From positions 444,938 through 508,937 of the forward strand of contig NZ_JODC01000011.1 in the NCBI RefSeq assembly GCF_000720765.1: a DNA stretch of 64,000 nucleotides, in the 5' to 3' direction. The notes beneath the pieces were generated by a model. The model was not told the DNA's origin. It searched no databases and saw only the letters and a list, made by a program, of their open reading frames with translations. How positions within the stretch are numbered: position 1 is the stretch's first letter; the number at the start of each line of letters is the position of its first letter. Shown here piece by piece: positions 19,081 through 24,672 of the stretch. Source of the DNA: Streptomyces sp. NRRL S-646 (lineage in GTDB: Bacteria; Actinomycetota; Actinomycetes; Streptomycetales; Streptomycetaceae). Made by a program: the position numbers and the translations under genes.

Positions 19081-20865
19081 CTACCACCTGAGGATCATCG
19101 TCTCGTCCTGCGTCGGCGGTACGTCGGCCACGGCGTCCGGCAGCGGCTCGGCGAGCCGGGCGTAGGCGCCCAAGCGGGCGAGGAGTTCCTGGTGGGTGCC
19201 CGCCTCCACCAGGCGGCCCCGGTCGACGACGAGGATCCGGTCCGCGTCCGGTGCGAGGCTCAGGTCGTGCGTGATCATGATCGTCGTACGGCCCGCCATC
19301 AGCTTGCGCAGCGGTGTCACCACCTGGCGGGCGGCCACCGCGTCCAGGCCCGCGGTCGGTTCGTCCAGGACCAGGACCGGTGCGGCGCGGAGCATCGCGC
19401 GGGCGATGGCGACGCGCTGCAGCTGGCCGCCGGAGAGGGCGGCCGTGCCGGGCGCGATGTGGGTGTCGTACCCCTCGGGCAGGGCGGTGATGAAGTTGTG
19501 CGCCGCCGCCTCGCGGGCCGCCTGCTCGATCTCCTCGTCGCTCGCGCCGGGCCGCCCGCAGGCGATGTTCTCCCGGATGGTGCCGCTGAGGACGAGGGTC
19601 TCCTGGGGCAGCAGCGCCACGTTCTCGCGCAGGAACTCCAGCGGTACGTCCGTGAGCGGGACGCCGTCCAGGGTGATCGTGCCCTGCGCGGGGTCGTAGA
19701 AGCGGGTGAGGAGCTTCGAGAGGGTCGACTTGCCTGCGCCGCTCGAACCGGTGACGATCACCAGCTCGCCGGGCCCCGCGGTGAAGGTCACGTCGCGCAG
19801 GGAGGCGCGGCGGGACTCGGGGTAGCGGAAGGACACGTCGTGGAAGGCGACCCAGCCGCGCACCGGCCATTCGGCGACCGGTTGGGCGGGGTCGGCCACG
19901 GCGGGCTTCGCGTCCAGGATCTCGTTCAGGCGCTGGGCGCCCGCGGTGGCCGCGGTGAGGGTGAGGCCGAGCCGGCCGAGGTTGCGGACCGGCGGGTAGA
20001 GGTAGCCCAGGAAGGCGGCGAAGGCGAGGAGCTGGCCGAGGGTCATACGGCCGGCCGAGATCTCCCAGACGCCCAGGCCGATGACGGCCAGCACGCAGAG
20101 GGTCTCCACGACCTCGACGAACTGCTCGTACATCTCGCTGAGGCGGGCCCCGCGGACCGATGCCGTCATCCAGGCGCGCGCCTCGCGGTCGAGGCGCTGC
20201 TCCTCGTCCCGGCGGCGGTTGTAGGCCTGGGTGAGGACGATGTTGCCGAGCGACTCCTCCACGACGGAGGTGATCGCGCCGTCGGCGACCCGTTCGTCCT
20301 GCGAGGCCGTCCTGATACGGCCGGAGAAGCGGCGGGCGGCGAGGAGGAAGAGGGGCGCGAGGACGAACGTGGCCAGGGCCAGGTCCCAGCGCAGGTAGAG
20401 GGCGGCGCAGGAGTAGAAGACCGCCGAGAAGGCGGCCGACGCCGTGCCGACGACGCCCGAGACGACCATCTGCTCGATGGCCTCGACGTCACCGGTCAGC
20501 CGCTCGACCAGGTCGCCCTGGCGGTGCTTCTGGAAGAAGTGCGGTGGCAGGCCCTGGACATGCCGGAAGACGCCCGCCCGTAGCCGCAGCACGAATCTCT
20601 CCGCGGTCCAGGTGGCAAGGGAGTTGCCGAGGTAGCCGACGAGCGCGCCGAGCGCGGCGACGGCCAGCCAGGCACCGGCCGGGCCCCAGAAGGCGGAGAG
20701 CGAGCCGGCCTTCAGGGCGTTGTCGGTGAGCTCCGCGAACAGCAGGATCGAGGCGGTCTCGGCGAGCGCGGACACCACCACGCACGCGACGATCGCCACG
20801 AGCCACTTGCGGTCGCCGCGGGTCAGCGGCCAGAAACGGCGGAAGGCCGCACGGACCTCGCTCAT
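19081..20865 (-). CDS. ABC exporter, fused membrane and ATPase domains
   Basis: The 594-residue half-transporter has six predicted membrane helices in residues 20-310 and one ATPase domain: Walker A at 373-380 (GSSGAGKS), signature LSGGQLQR, Walker [10 protein letters not shown] and a switch His (MITHDLS). It should act as a homodimer. There is no N-terminal C39 peptidase domain. Two tiny Lys/Pro-rich peptide genes lie directly upstream on the same strand, separated by a hairpin. A role in exporting them is plausible but not shown; lipid or drug export is the alternative. Confidence 0.88.
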
Positions 20866-20915
20866 GGTCGACTCCCTTCGGGCACACGGCCCTTGATACG
20901 GCCATCGGACATGGC

Positions 20916-20969
20916 CGAGGCGGGGCCCCGGTGCGAGCAGGATGCTCGCCGACCGGTGACCCCGCCTCG
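20916..20969 (-). terminator. Nested hairpin between peptide genes and ABC exporter
   Basis: Perfect 10-bp outer arms (CGAGGCGGGG and complement) enclose an inner stem GCGAGCA/TGCTCGC. Placed between the second peptide gene and the exporter, it could cut most transcripts after the peptides, giving many peptides per exporter. Confidence 0.75.
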
Positions 20970-20978
20970 TGGCCTGGC

Positions 20979-21107
20979 TCAGCCCTGGTGGCCGACGGGG
21001 CGGCGCTTCGGGGCCGGGGCGGGCTTCTTCGGCGCCTTCTTGCGGGGGGCCGGGGCACCCTTCTTGCAGTCGTTCTTCTTCACCGGGGCAATCTTGTGGA
21101 AGCTCAT
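20979..21107 (-). CDS. Lys/Pro-rich small peptide A (42 aa)
   Basis: A 42-codon gene starts MSFHKIAPVKK, has one internal Cys (14), then repeated Lys/Ala/Pro text (RKKAPKKPAPAPKRR) and ends PVGHQG. The ribosome site AAAGG lies 11 bases upstream. It is a paralogue of the peptide gene 55 bases upstream, sharing the first 11 residues and the Lys/Pro core plus PVGH end. The net charge is strongly positive. It might be an exported peptide precursor of the adjacent ABC exporter or a nucleic-acid-binding peptide. No family is recognised. Confidence 0.75.
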   Translation of the reverse strand: MSFHKIAPVKKNDCKKGAPAPRKKAPKKPAPAPKRRPVGHQG

Positions 21108-21162
21108 GGGATTCTGCCTTTCTGGCTGTGAATTGCTTTGATTTACCGAGCTAAATTCTGTG

Positions 21163-21276
21163 TCAGCACTTGTGGCCGACGGGGCGCTTCGGCGCGGGCT
21201 TCTTCGGGGCCTTCTTCTTGGGGGCCGGCGCGGGCTTGTGGGCCTTCTTGACCGGGGCGATCTTATGGAAGCTCAT
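21163..21276 (-). CDS. Lys/Pro-rich small peptide B (37 aa)
   Basis: A 37-codon gene with a near-perfect ribosome site (AAGGAG, 7 bases before ATG). It starts MSFHKIAPVKK like peptide A, has a Lys/Ala/Pro core (PAPAPKKKAPKKPAPK) and ends RPVGHKC with a C-terminal Cys. The identical head and tail and variable middle length suggest tandem duplication. The spacers on both sides are much richer in A and T than the rest of the window. The promoter for both peptides should lie in 21277-21400. Confidence 0.75.
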   Translation of the reverse strand: MSFHKIAPVKKAHKPAPAPKKKAPKKPAPKRPVGHKC

Positions 21277-21404
21277 TATGTTCTCCTTCGTTTCGCGTCG
21301 TTCGCTTTCGACATGGAAAACATTACGGCATTCCCGAAGCAGGAAAAGTCCAATACCGCTTAGAGGTTCCTGAGTTGATGCTGTGAGAGATTCTTATGTA
21401 AATT
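21277..21404 (-). promoter_or_regulatory. AT-rich upstream region of the peptide genes
   Basis: This stretch is unusually A/T-rich for the window (for example TGGAAAACATTACGG). It precedes the peptide genes and must contain their promoter. No hexamer pair can be assigned with confidence. Confidence 0.4.
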
Positions 21405-21420
21405 GCGGAACCGAATCCGC
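21405..21420 (-). terminator. Hairpin after the DUF2993 gene
   Basis: On the minus strand GCGGA and TCCGC pair around a 6-base loop and are followed by AATTTA. It lies 13 bases after the stop of the DUF2993 gene and fits a weak terminator. Confidence 0.5.
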
Positions 21421-21433
21421 ACTCACACAGCTT

Positions 21434-22639
21434 TTATGGGGCGCCGGGGGTGCTGCCGACCGCAAGGCCCGAGCCCTCGATCCGCACCCGAATCCCGTCC
21501 TTCTCCACCCGCACATCCCGAAGCCGCAGCTCACCGCGGTGCGGTGTGGGCAGGCGGAAGCCCAGGGACAGGCGGTCGACCAGCACCGGGCGGGTGAGCC
21601 GGGGCAGGGCGTCCAGGAGGGACGGGTCGAAGCCGAGGCGCTTGAGCAGGGCCGGGTGTTCCAGTGCCAGGTCGATGAGGTTGAGCCGCATGGCCCGGTG
21701 GATGAAGCGCGGTGAGCCCGTCACGCGCGCCAGCTCGGTGTCGGAGCGCAGGGCCGTGCGTACGACGGAGTCGGGTACGCCGAGCCGCCGTATCACCGCC
21801 GGAACCGCGAACAGCGCCTTCGCCTTCTTCGTCTCGTGCGCGAGGCGTGCGGCGGAGGTGCGGGTCAGGTGCAGGCCCTCGGAGGCGCGGGTGCCGGGCC
21901 GGTAGGTGGCCAAGTCCCCGATGTCCAGGCGCATTCCGCCGATCTGGGTGGCGATGCCGTGCTCGCCGTCCCGGCCGATACGGGCGTCGGCCCGCAGCCG
22001 GAGGTCGTGGCCGGCCACCGGGAGCGTGCCGCGCGCCAGCACCCGGTCGTGGCCTTCTCCCGTGAACGTCACCTGGGACGCGCCGAGTTCGCGGTTCAGG
22101 TCGTCGAAGGAAAGCAGTACGTCGCCGTCGAGCCGGGGAATCCCCGCGCCACGTACGGAGGTCGGTCCGTCGGGCGCGTCCAGCCGTACGTCGTGTGCGG
22201 TCGCCGTCACCGTGGCCAGCGTGACCCGGTCGGCGGCGACGTCCGGCACGGTGACCTTCACCGACTTCACTCTGCCGTTGGCGAGTTGGGTGAGGAAGGG
22301 GAAGCCGTCGATGTCCACTTCGGGCGCCGCGCTCAGGTGCATCCGGGCCTTGAGCTCATCGGCCGCCCGGCGCTCGGCGTACAGGAGCGCCCAGCGGTCG
22401 GCGAGGGTGAGGAAGGCGGCGAGGACGACGACGCCCACCACCGCCTTCAGCGCGAGCGGCAGGCCCGCGAAGCGTTTTCGCCTGCGGCGGCCGCGGCGAC
22501 GGTGGTTGGGCGGAGCCCAGGGCTCGTCCTCCTCTTCCTCGCTCGCGACGAACTCGACCTCGCTTGCGGCAGAGGCACCCTCGAAAAAGTCGTTGATGTT
22601 TGTACCAGGATGCGTCGTTATGTGGTGGGGGGCACGCAT
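21434..22639 (-). CDS. DUF2993 (LmeA-like) protein with cytoplasmic head
   Basis: The 401-residue protein has an acidic then Arg-rich head (1-60, HRRRGRRRRKR), one membrane span (about 65-83) and a long DUF2993 region outside. It shares FPFLTQLANG with the protein at 8.1-8.9 kb but is about 150 residues longer. Lipid binding at the outer face of the membrane is the known property of LmeA; the role here is unknown. It lies 58 bases after the 5'-nucleotidase stop on the same strand. Confidence 0.8.
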   Translation of the reverse strand: MRAPHHITTHPGTNINDFFEGASAASEVEFVASEEEEDEPWAPPNHRRRGRRRRKRFAGLPLALKAVVGVVVLAAFLTLADRWALLYAERRAADELKARMHLSAAPEVDIDGFPFLTQLANGRVKSVKVTVPDVAADRVTLATVTATAHDVRLDAPDGPTSVRGAGIPRLDGDVLLSFDDLNRELGASQVTFTGEGHDRVLARGTLPVAGHDLRLRADARIGRDGEHGIATQIGGMRLDIGDLATYRPGTRASEGLHLTRTSAARLAHETKKAKALFAVPAVIRRLGVPDSVVRTALRSDTELARVTGSPRFIHRAMRLNLIDLALEHPALLKRLGFDPSLLDALPRLTRPVLVDRLSLGFRLPTPHRGELRLRDVRVEKDGIRVRIEGSGLAVGSTPGAP

Positions 22640-22697: not shown

Positions 22698-24497
22698 CTA
22701 GCTCACGATCGTGATCCGGTCGGCCGCCGGGGGCGAAATCGGGCCGCCGGCCGAGGAGTTGGCCGTCAGGTACTTCTCCAGCGCGGCCAGGTCGTCGGTG
22801 CCCACCAGGTCACCGGTGCCCTGCCCGAGCGTCGGGAAGCCGTCACCGCCGCCCGCGAGGAAGCTGTTGGTGGCGACACGGTAGGTGGCGGCCGGGTCGA
22901 TCGCGGACCCGTTGAGCTTGATGGAGTCCGTCACCACCCGGTCCGCGCCCGTCTTCGTCAGGTCCAGCGTGTACGTCAGGCCCGACGAGGGCTGCAGGAT
23001 CTTCGGCGCGGCGGCGTTCGTGCCGCTCACCTGCTCCTTCAGGACCTGGATCAACTGGGCGCCGGTGAAGTTCTGCAGATTCACGGTGTTGGAGAAGGGC
23101 TGGACGGTGAAGCCCTCGGCGTAGGTGACCACCCCGTCGCCCTCGCTGCCCTTGGCCGCGTAGGTCAGCCCGGCCCGCACCCCGCCCGGGTTCATCAGCG
23201 CGAGGTCGGTCTCCGGGTCGAGCTCCTTGCCGTACGCGAGCTGCGCGTCGGCGATCAGGTCGCCCATCGGGGACTCGGTGCCGGTGTTGGGGACGTCGGC
23301 GGAGATGTAGCCGATCGTACGGTTGCCGATGGGCGCGGCCAGGGTGTTCCACTTGCCGATCAGCTCGGTCATGTCCGGCGCCTTGGCGACGGTCCGGGTG
23401 ACCACGTGGTTCGCCGACTTGACCGCGGTACGGGCGATGTCACCGGTGAAGCGGTCGTACGTCAGCGTGGTGTCCGTGTAGAGACGGCCGAAGGACGCGG
23501 CCGAGGTGACCATGCGTGGCCTGCCCGCCGGGTCGGGGATCGTGCAGACGTAGGCCGCGTGCGTGTGGCCCGTGACCAGAGCGTCCACCGACGGCGTGAT
23601 GTTCTTCGCGATGTCGACGATCGGGCCGGAGATGCCGCTGCCCGCGCCCGCGGAGTCGCAGTTGTAGTTGTACGAGCCGGAGGCGGGCAGGCCGCCCTCG
23701 TGGATCAGCGCGACGATCGACTTCACGCCCTGTGCCTGGAGCACACGCGCGTACTTGTTGATCGTCTCGACCTCGTCCTTGAACTTGAGGCCCTTGACTC
23801 CTTCGGCGGAGACGACTCCCGGGGTGTCCTCCAGCGTGACGCCGATGAAGCCGATCTTGACGTCCTTCTTCTTCCACACCCAGTAGGGCTTGAGGATCGG
23901 CTTGTTCGTCTTCTCGTCGAGGACGTTCGCCGCCAGGTAGGGGAAGTCGGCGCCCTCGAACTCCTGGTCCGTGTAGCAGCCGGCCGTGGGGTGGCATCCG
24001 CCGTTCTGCAGCCGGGCCAGTTCCCTGGCGCCCTCGTCGAACTCGTGGTTGCCGACGGAGGTGACGTCCAGGTCGAGCTTGTTCAGCGCCTCGATGGTGG
24101 GCTCGTCGTGGAAGAGGCCCGAGATCAGCGGGGAGGCGCCGACCATGTCGCCGCCGGCCGCCGTGATGGAGTACGCCTTGCCCTTGCGGGCCTCGCGCAG
24201 ATGGGTCGCGAGGTACTCGACACCACCGGCGTCGATGGTCTTCGTCGTACCGTCGGCCTGCAGCTCGGTGACCCGGCCGGACGAGCCCGACGGCGGCTCC
24301 AGGTTGCCGTGCAGGTCGTTGAAGGACAGCAGCTGTACGTCCTGGTAGCGGCTCGGGTGGTGACCGCCGCCCTTCGTCTCGTGCGCGTCCGCCGGAAGCG
24401 CGGCGGCAAGGGCGCCGGCGGTGGCGAGTCCGGCGGCTGCGGCGACGAGACGGAACGCCCGTCTGCGGCGCGGGTACGGCTGGGAAGTGGCTGGCAT
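22698..24497 (-). CDS. Secreted 5'-nucleotidase/2',3'-cyclic phosphodiesterase
   Basis: The 599-residue protein has a signal peptide (basic start PRRRRAF, hydrophobic core, cleavage near ALPADAHE). The metallophosphatase domain shows the metal motifs FNDLHGN, GNHEFDEG and GHTHAAYV. The C-terminal nucleotidase domain follows (about 350-590). It should dephosphorylate extracellular nucleotides and supply phosphate and nucleosides. The ATG at 24497 follows AGGGGGGCGC; a longer start at 24545 is rejected. It is divergent from mshD across 175 bases that must hold both promoters. Confidence 0.9.
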   Translation of the reverse strand: MPATSQPYPRRRRAFRLVAAAAGLATAGALAAALPADAHETKGGGHHPSRYQDVQLLSFNDLHGNLEPPSGSSGRVTELQADGTTKTIDAGGVEYLATHLREARKGKAYSITAAGGDMVGASPLISGLFHDEPTIEALNKLDLDVTSVGNHEFDEGARELARLQNGGCHPTAGCYTDQEFEGADFPYLAANVLDEKTNKPILKPYWVWKKKDVKIGFIGVTLEDTPGVVSAEGVKGLKFKDEVETINKYARVLQAQGVKSIVALIHEGGLPASGSYNYNCDSAGAGSGISGPIVDIAKNITPSVDALVTGHTHAAYVCTIPDPAGRPRMVTSAASFGRLYTDTTLTYDRFTGDIARTAVKSANHVVTRTVAKAPDMTELIGKWNTLAAPIGNRTIGYISADVPNTGTESPMGDLIADAQLAYGKELDPETDLALMNPGGVRAGLTYAAKGSEGDGVVTYAEGFTVQPFSNTVNLQNFTGAQLIQVLKEQVSGTNAAAPKILQPSSGLTYTLDLTKTGADRVVTDSIKLNGSAIDPAATYRVATNSFLAGGGDGFPTLGQGTGDLVGTDDLAALEKYLTANSSAGGPISPPAADRITIVS

Positions 24498-24672
24498 GCG
24501 CCCCCCTGAGGGTCCATTGAGGCCTGCGGGTCTGCTGAATGTCATGGCCTCGTCCGGCGCAGCCTAGAGTCAACGCGCGTAGCACGAAAAGGGATTCGTG
24601 GTTACATCCTGGTTTCCCTTTGCCCTTCCGTTGACCCCCACTTTGCGGGGCGCTCCGCTTACCCTCGTACGC

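Follow-up and report, generated by a model that had tools for sequence, protein, structure and literature searches.

The stretch of DNA analyzed here (the window) is 64,000 nt long and spans positions 444,938–508,937 of contig NZ_JODC01000011.1 from Streptomyces sp. NRRL S-646. It lies within the pst-ppk phosphate supercluster: it carries ppk, a PHO4-type phosphate transporter, pstSCAB and MshD (mycothiol synthase), as well as a 5'-nucleotidase-type protein and an LmeA-like protein. The pitH1-pst-ppk supercluster and the PhoP-regulated 5'-nucleotidase SCO4152 are both described in PMC7866108.

The features of interest lie on the reverse strand and consist of (i) two tiny peptide genes, (ii) a strong stem-loop, and (iii) an ABC exporter gene, in that order. 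Peptide gene 1, the first copy (21163–21276), is an ORF of 37 aa with the head MSFHKIAPVKK, the tail KRPVGHKC, an AAGGAG ribosome site, and homologues elsewhere. Peptide gene 2, the last copy (20979–21107), encodes 42 aa with the same head, the tail RRPVGHQG, and an internal cysteine (Cys14). A sequence-only reading of the window had proposed both genes, and both are real: they share their head and a (K/R)RPVGH tail, and they have relatives in other genomes. The good ribosome site that had been credited to each is present before gene 1, while that of gene 2 (AAAGG) is weaker. The placement of cysteines had been read correctly for the two window ORFs, with one internal and one C-terminal. The exporter, a half-transporter of 594 aa (PF00664 and PF00005; 19081–20865), is encoded on the same strand downstream, its ATG at 20865 lying 113 nt beyond the stop of the last peptide gene. 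Between the two, at 20916–20969, the proposed nested structure is present: a strong stem-loop with an inner hairpin, terminator-like and lacking a T-run.

The region ahead of the array (21277–21433, the presumptive promoter region) has a GC content of 0.465 and the spacer between the two peptide genes one of 0.436, against 0.698 for the window; these spacers are AT-rich and unlike their surroundings, as had been noted. Within the upstream region lies a near-invariant box, ATGTTTTCCATGTCGAAAGCGAAC (21300–21323, reverse strand), perhaps a promoter or transcript start region. Pfam recognized no modifying enzyme among 20 window ORFs scanned, two of which are the peptides themselves and some of which are not likely genes. 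Rfam gave no match at E ≤ 1 within 20850–21450. In PADLOC, 0 of 4 peptides were matched, and the exporter was matched by four models, all over its ATPase part.

Family I peptides and their exporter in Streptomyces

A search of 5.8 billion proteins returned 126 relatives of the window peptides at E ≤ 10 (120 of them listed), and the family, here family I, occurs in 59 of 392 Streptomyces genomes; the peptide genes are thus not chance ORFs. The head is common to all relatives read and the tail to most, while core length varies. Among the listings seen, the tiny genes, where named, are called 'hypothetical protein' or 'uncharacterized protein'. Some database versions (P0080, P0082, P0083 and similar) carry 15–35 extra N-terminal residues that run through the upstream box, and are probably mis-called starts; in the family I loci, the starts shown are preceded by purine-rich, ribosome-site-like sequence.

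Copy number was counted with a pattern of head plus (K/R)RP tail in 42 loci (41 named loci and the window). The pattern finds 70 copies in 38 of these—an undercount, since four loci fell outside it—with one, two, three, four and five copies in 15, 17, 4, 1 and 1 loci, respectively. Two genes is hence the right number for the window but not for the family, and cysteine, present in only 18 of the 70 copies, is not a family feature. Judged from its codons, family I is under protein-level constraint at both head and tail: Pro8, the tail Arg and the tail Pro are each invariant in 70/70 copies despite the use of 3, 4 and 3 codons, respectively. Some head codons are fixed at the DNA level too (AGC in 70/70, AAG in 70/70), so part of the head constraint may be codon bias.

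The upstream box (GTGTTTTCCATGTCGAAAGCGAAC-like) precedes the first peptide gene in the window and in the arrays of loci L015–L055. Its pattern was found in 35 of 38 upstream regions, and has a single match in the genome when up to 3 mismatches are allowed. An ATG/GTG in the box could start a leaderless MSKAN mini-ORF; an N-terminal extension of the peptide in this frame was rejected, the three frames being used 15/10/10 times among 35 regions, as at random. A conserved element, approximately GTTGCAGCAGATCGGTAGAGGAACTGTTGCAGAAC, lies between tandem copies (e.g., in L018, L020, L037 and L055) and is present in some, not all, of 33 aligned spacers.

The link between peptide and exporter, which the sequence-only reading had put forward as a test, is strongly supported across Streptomyces. 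A same-strand exporter match lies downstream in 40 of the 41 named loci (the best aligned exporter piece being short in L017, L021 and L055); the exception, L026, keeps a peptide and has no exporter match. Of the 392 genomes, 55 have the exporter (counted from 74% identity upward and near full length), 59 a peptide profile match, and 54 both (Fisher p 3e-59, ignoring shared ancestry). The 55th exporter genome (G103) carries a divergent peptide, MSIRKVLP...RRRPIGF, 419 nt upstream, which the profile missed. As for the other peptide-bearing genomes, G108 has an exporter of 71–72% identity beside its peptide, below the counted identity, and in four genomes the exporter is broken or missing: it is split between frames in G180 (L090) with peptides kept, missing in G208 (L026), truncated together with the peptide in G291 (L095), and in fragments beside a kept peptide in G294 (L088). 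G189 (L094) has a frame-split exporter and yielded no peptide. G180 and G189, both frame-split, stand outside the count of 55, as do G032 (contig end) and G129 (69%, partial). These intact and decayed loci indicate that the two genes are mostly retained as a pair and often degenerate jointly.

Tiny genes before one clade of exporters

Upstream of more distant exporters of the same clade (36–78% identity) there is likewise a tiny gene, followed by a very strong stem-loop. The head of the product is short and hydrophobic, and its tail, of low complexity, is rich in K/P, R/D, R/G/Y or H/G/D, so the conserved head and variable core of the sequence-only reading hold across clades with quite different tails. 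One case lies in the same genome: an exporter paralogue of 70% identity (G000:C11:231534-233270) has its own, distinct tiny gene, MSLKKLAPLPPK... (MSLKKLAPLPPKSKNKQLPPPPPPKPKKK...), 277 nt upstream, with a ribosome site and hairpin. Clade II peptides read MSFKKLAPLPPKPKSKQLPPPPKPKPKK..., clade III MSFRKVFPRRRRRDHDDW...RRRRRRR, and clade IV MAIFSDLFPAKHRDHGDEGTS... with H/R/G/D repeats, several ending in GGHGGHGGY. Others read MTFKAFFP... and are Gly/Arg/Tyr-rich, and a further family (f20) reads MPLKKILPPPPKPKKHKK.... Locus L188 has two unusual acidic-aromatic peptides (MRFAFRHHWY..., MRFFHHLHRW...) upstream of a 37% exporter.

The layout was scored with a pattern-free criterion: an ATG ORF of 28–80 codons, a ribosome-site match of at least 4, a tail entropy of at most 3.2 bits, and a hairpin of at most −28 kcal/mol near the stop. 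It was scored in 126 loci, these being those of 134 with the exporter start found and 300 nt upstream (the eight left out are L019, L021, L026, L089, L093, L115, L128 and L166). All four elements were found in 116 of the 126 loci. The fair figure is that of the 82 loci chosen by exporter alone (36–78% identity over the aligned part), since 38 loci had been found by peptide and 6 picked for a peptide match; here the layout was found in 75 of 82, and in 32 of the 36 with under 60% identity. By eye, a peptide precedes the exporter in 79 of the 82, and an exporter conserved without peptides is thus rare. By head patterns written after reading the misses, peptides are present in 122 of the 126 loci; a first head pattern, which caught just 87 of 126 and missed MAIF... 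heads, was discarded. The final 300 upstream bases are different in each of the 126 loci; the counts are nonetheless not independent events, as the loci are related by descent.

In controls, the same layout was scored before 2 of 20 further PF00664 exporters from the window's genome (both in one region), in 0 of 67 regions before other genes of the same loci, in 4 of 252 dinucleotide shuffles and on 4 of 126 opposite strands. Because the thresholds had been set after viewing the first loci, fresh loci were run with the criterion fixed, giving 15 of 18; the misses were L248 (43 nt upstream), L220 (a GTG-start candidate) and L240 (a real miss). Within the class, 8 of 114 genera and 18 of 296 genomes have exporter matches at E ≤ 1e-110, and the system is therefore patchy. 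The layout was found in six genera including Streptomyces, with 11 of 13 loci in the other genera by the fixed criterion; two exporters in other genera (L174, L183) have no peptide. Searches with the f20 exporter turned up an exporter in one more genus, accompanied by a candidate peptide that starts with GTG.

What the peptides share can be stated for 122 of them, taking the last copy of each locus. They are 31–70 aa long with a median net charge of +11; 11 of the 122 have a net charge of zero or below, so 'cationic', as the sequence-only reading had it, does not serve as the common property. What they have in common instead is a hydrophobic head joined to a hydrophilic tail of low complexity. 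The head typically reads M-[S/A/G/P]-hydrophobic-x-x-hydrophobic-x-P; its hydrophobicity exceeds that of the tail in 122/122 peptides, and Pro occupies position 8 or 9 in 112 of them.

These properties bear on the idea, also raised at the outset, that the peptides are intracellular, histone-tail-like binders of nucleic acid or polyphosphate and the exporter an operon neighbor with a separate job. Family I is indeed Lys/Ala/Pro-rich, and ppk, pst, the PHO4-type transporter and the 5'-nucleotidase homologue lie in the same window. Nothing was found that specifically favors nucleic-acid binding, however: tails are chemically diverse between clades, and the pairing persists at other loci (e.g., G000:C11:231534) with different tail chemistry, including the 11 peptides that are not net positive. 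The array promoter also gave no PHO box by a simple score for two 11-nt GTTCACC-type repeats (maximum 14): the mean best score was 8.4 over 38 regions vs 7.9 when shuffled, and PHO-box control of the array was rejected, while the same scan scores 12 upstream of pstS (45952). For the 5'-nucleotidase homologue upstream of the array (22698–24545, reverse strand), the 300 nt scanned in this way reached 9 of 14, short of a clear PHO box. On this evidence we consider an intracellular binding role very improbable.

The exporter itself has a PF00664 membrane domain from residue 23, a PF00005 domain, and weak generic AAA/SMC matches; Pfam found no C39 or other N-terminal peptidase domain on it, and no known secretion signal was found on the peptides. 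Among the PDB and NCBIfam entries listed, those closest to it are exporters of the generic MsbA/P-glycoprotein type, and no NCBIfam model reaches its cut-off among the best 25 of 188 matched. With the MsbA-like models TIGR02203 and TIGR02204, the best of those 25, it shares the half-transporter layout; its scores of 418 and 396 fall short of their cut-offs (602 and 780), and the clade to which it belongs is a separate one, marked by membrane-domain acidic residues of its own. In a membrane-domain tree, 17 other exporters of the genome fall fully apart from this clade (support 1.0). When 75 clade sequences (a few being the same gene fetched twice and two coming from peptide-less loci) were divided into three identity groups, positions E36, E131 and E254 proved acidic in 69–100% of every group; for the 17 control exporters the corresponding figures are 0%, 6% and 0%. 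E244 and E247 are acidic only in the closer groups. Such residues would be compatible with a path for polycations, a point to which we give little weight since their number does not follow peptide charge (exporter acidity vs peptide charge: rho 0.18, p 0.16, n = 62).

The same residues could instead bind basic tails if the peptide were a partner or regulator of the exporter, its head docking so as to plug or tune the transporter, and were not itself exported. The near-obligate pairing and the conservation of the head within each exporter clade fit such a role. A copy number of up to 5 would be unusual for a subunit, as would tails that swap composition wholly between clades, and the lack of correlation between exporter acidity and peptide charge also speaks against it. 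A partner role therefore seems improbable to us.

The hairpin, and export versus attenuation

A strong hairpin follows the peptide in 122/122 peptide-bearing loci, with a mean best energy of −40 kcal/mol and no value above −28. When a quarter of the loci were mononucleotide-shuffled, the mean was −25 and the lowest value −37.5 kcal/mol, so single hairpin energies overlap with shuffles. The sequence of the hairpin varies between clades while its position is kept, 0–39 nt beyond the stop codon, and several hairpins of clade II have a T-run behind them, the arrangement of an intrinsic terminator. The family I arms hardly vary in sequence (at 11 of 16 pairs, at least 19 of 20 sequences are identical), which leaves the covariation evidence thin (two-sided change in 4 of 16 pairs, 20 sequences). 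This conservation exceeds pairing and is more than a plain terminator needs, and the window hairpin has no T-run. The presence of a strong hairpin behind the peptide in all 122 loci makes a role in dosage or termination plausible.

Two further observations concern the family I stem. The sequence just past it (GGCCATGTCC; alignment A2) is largely conserved, beyond what termination needs, and may be bound by something. The possibility that the hairpin is a dispersed repeat was rejected, its pattern matching once in the genome.

We propose, with a probability of roughly one half, that these loci are peptide–hairpin–exporter modules: the exporter would secrete the peptide by way of its head, and the hairpin would keep the peptide in excess over the exporter. 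A tiny gene, in one to five copies, would be translated in the cell into a peptide whose head is hydrophobic and whose tail is hydrophilic and of low complexity; the ABC exporter of the neighboring gene would recognize the head and secrete the peptide; and the stem-loop just past the peptide stop would end most transcripts, giving far more peptide than exporter. Counting against this proposal are the lack of a recognized secretion signal or peptidase domain, the exporter acidity that does not follow peptide charge, the four genomes with a peptide match and a broken or missing exporter, the exporters without a peptide at L174, L183 and L240, and a family I hairpin more conserved than termination calls for. 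Outside the cell, the peptides might serve in antagonism, in coating anionic cell-wall polymers, or in polyphosphate binding, and His-rich tails might bind metal; these roles are guesses.

The main rival to export is leader-peptide attenuation. Here, slow or drug-stalled ribosomes on the tiny ORF would let RNA polymerase pass the hairpin, and a drug exporter would be made; in a possible variant, a ribosome at the stop codon would simply cover the hairpin base. The order of short ORF, strong hairpin and ABC exporter in the clades read is as attenuation would have it, the tails are basic and proline-rich (Lys/Arg runs and Pro runs, which would make the ORF hard to translate), and PMC4191407 supplies a precedent in bmrB for bmrCD of Bacillus subtilis. 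The terminator-like hairpin here lies after the stop codon, however, rather than within the ORF as in bmrB, and at a loose distance from it. Among up to 5 tandem ORFs, just the last lies beside the hairpin, and the tails, ranging from K/P-rich to H/G-rich and acidic-aromatic, have no common stall motif by eye. An anti-terminator overlapping the peptide ORF was rejected: across 122 loci with one shuffle per locus, the hairpin 5' arm shows no excess complementarity to the coding region (7.26 vs 7.34 nt), and matches of 10 or more nt occur in 6 loci vs 9 shuffles. Finally, peptides remain intact where the exporter is gone or fragmentary (L026, L088). Tandem copies, protein-level constraint and peptides that outlive their exporters disfavor a pure leader role, and we regard attenuation as unlikely. 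If the peptides are leaders instead, they would represent the widest leader-peptide control of ABC exporters known to us.

The recurrence of these tiny genes and hairpins ahead of one exporter branch, in Streptomyces and in some further actinobacteria, points to a kind of exported peptide that has not been described. More tentatively, and at somewhat less than even odds, the loci may be undescribed, patchy actinobacterial secretion modules built on one ABC exporter clade, each dedicated to a ribosomally made, unmodified low-complexity polypeptide whose short hydrophobic head is recognized and whose tail chemistry—Lys/Pro, Arg/Gly, His/Gly or acidic-aromatic—is free to evolve; in effect, disordered polymers would be exported in a programmable way. 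Many such exporters have no known substrate; a conserved arrangement that points to the probable substrate gene throughout an exporter clade can be tested directly. Should the peptides prove to be exported, their head would amount to a new minimal signal for exporting tails that are disordered, highly charged or His/Gly-rich.

Comparison with known systems

In the literature searched, whose scope left out most subscription papers and all preprints, no description of the family or its sequence fragments was found. Besides the MsbA-like exporters compared above, three known arrangements come close. The first is the RiPP precursor and exporter cassette, with a conserved head, a variable core, and a hairpin after the precursor gene. 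The loci described here share all three features; they differ in that no modifying enzyme was recognized in the window (20 ORFs) and the exporter is without a peptidase domain.

The second is the leaderless bacteriocin. According to PMC6131525 and PMC11580447, systems of the aureocin A70 and A53 kind encode tiny, mostly cationic peptides without a cleavable leader, sometimes as 2–4 related peptides, together with membrane or ABC transporter genes; A53-like bacteriocins are Trp-rich, and an index given for the four A70 peptides, which we take as hydropathy, runs from +0.53 to +0.71. Our loci resemble these in having a tiny peptide gene adjoining an ABC transporter gene. The present peptides differ in being very hydrophilic (GRAVY median −1.37, maximum −0.38) and low-complexity with a conserved head; Trp occurs in 21 of the 122, and an amphipathic or Trp-rich composition was thus not found.

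The third is bmrB-bmrCD, in which, according to PMC4191407, a 53-aa ORF containing a terminator hairpin with a predicted anti-terminator is followed by an ABC exporter. The order of short ORF, hairpin and ABC exporter is common to both. Our loci differ from it in placing the hairpin after the stop and giving no anti-terminator signal, and in carrying tandem ORFs under protein-level constraint.
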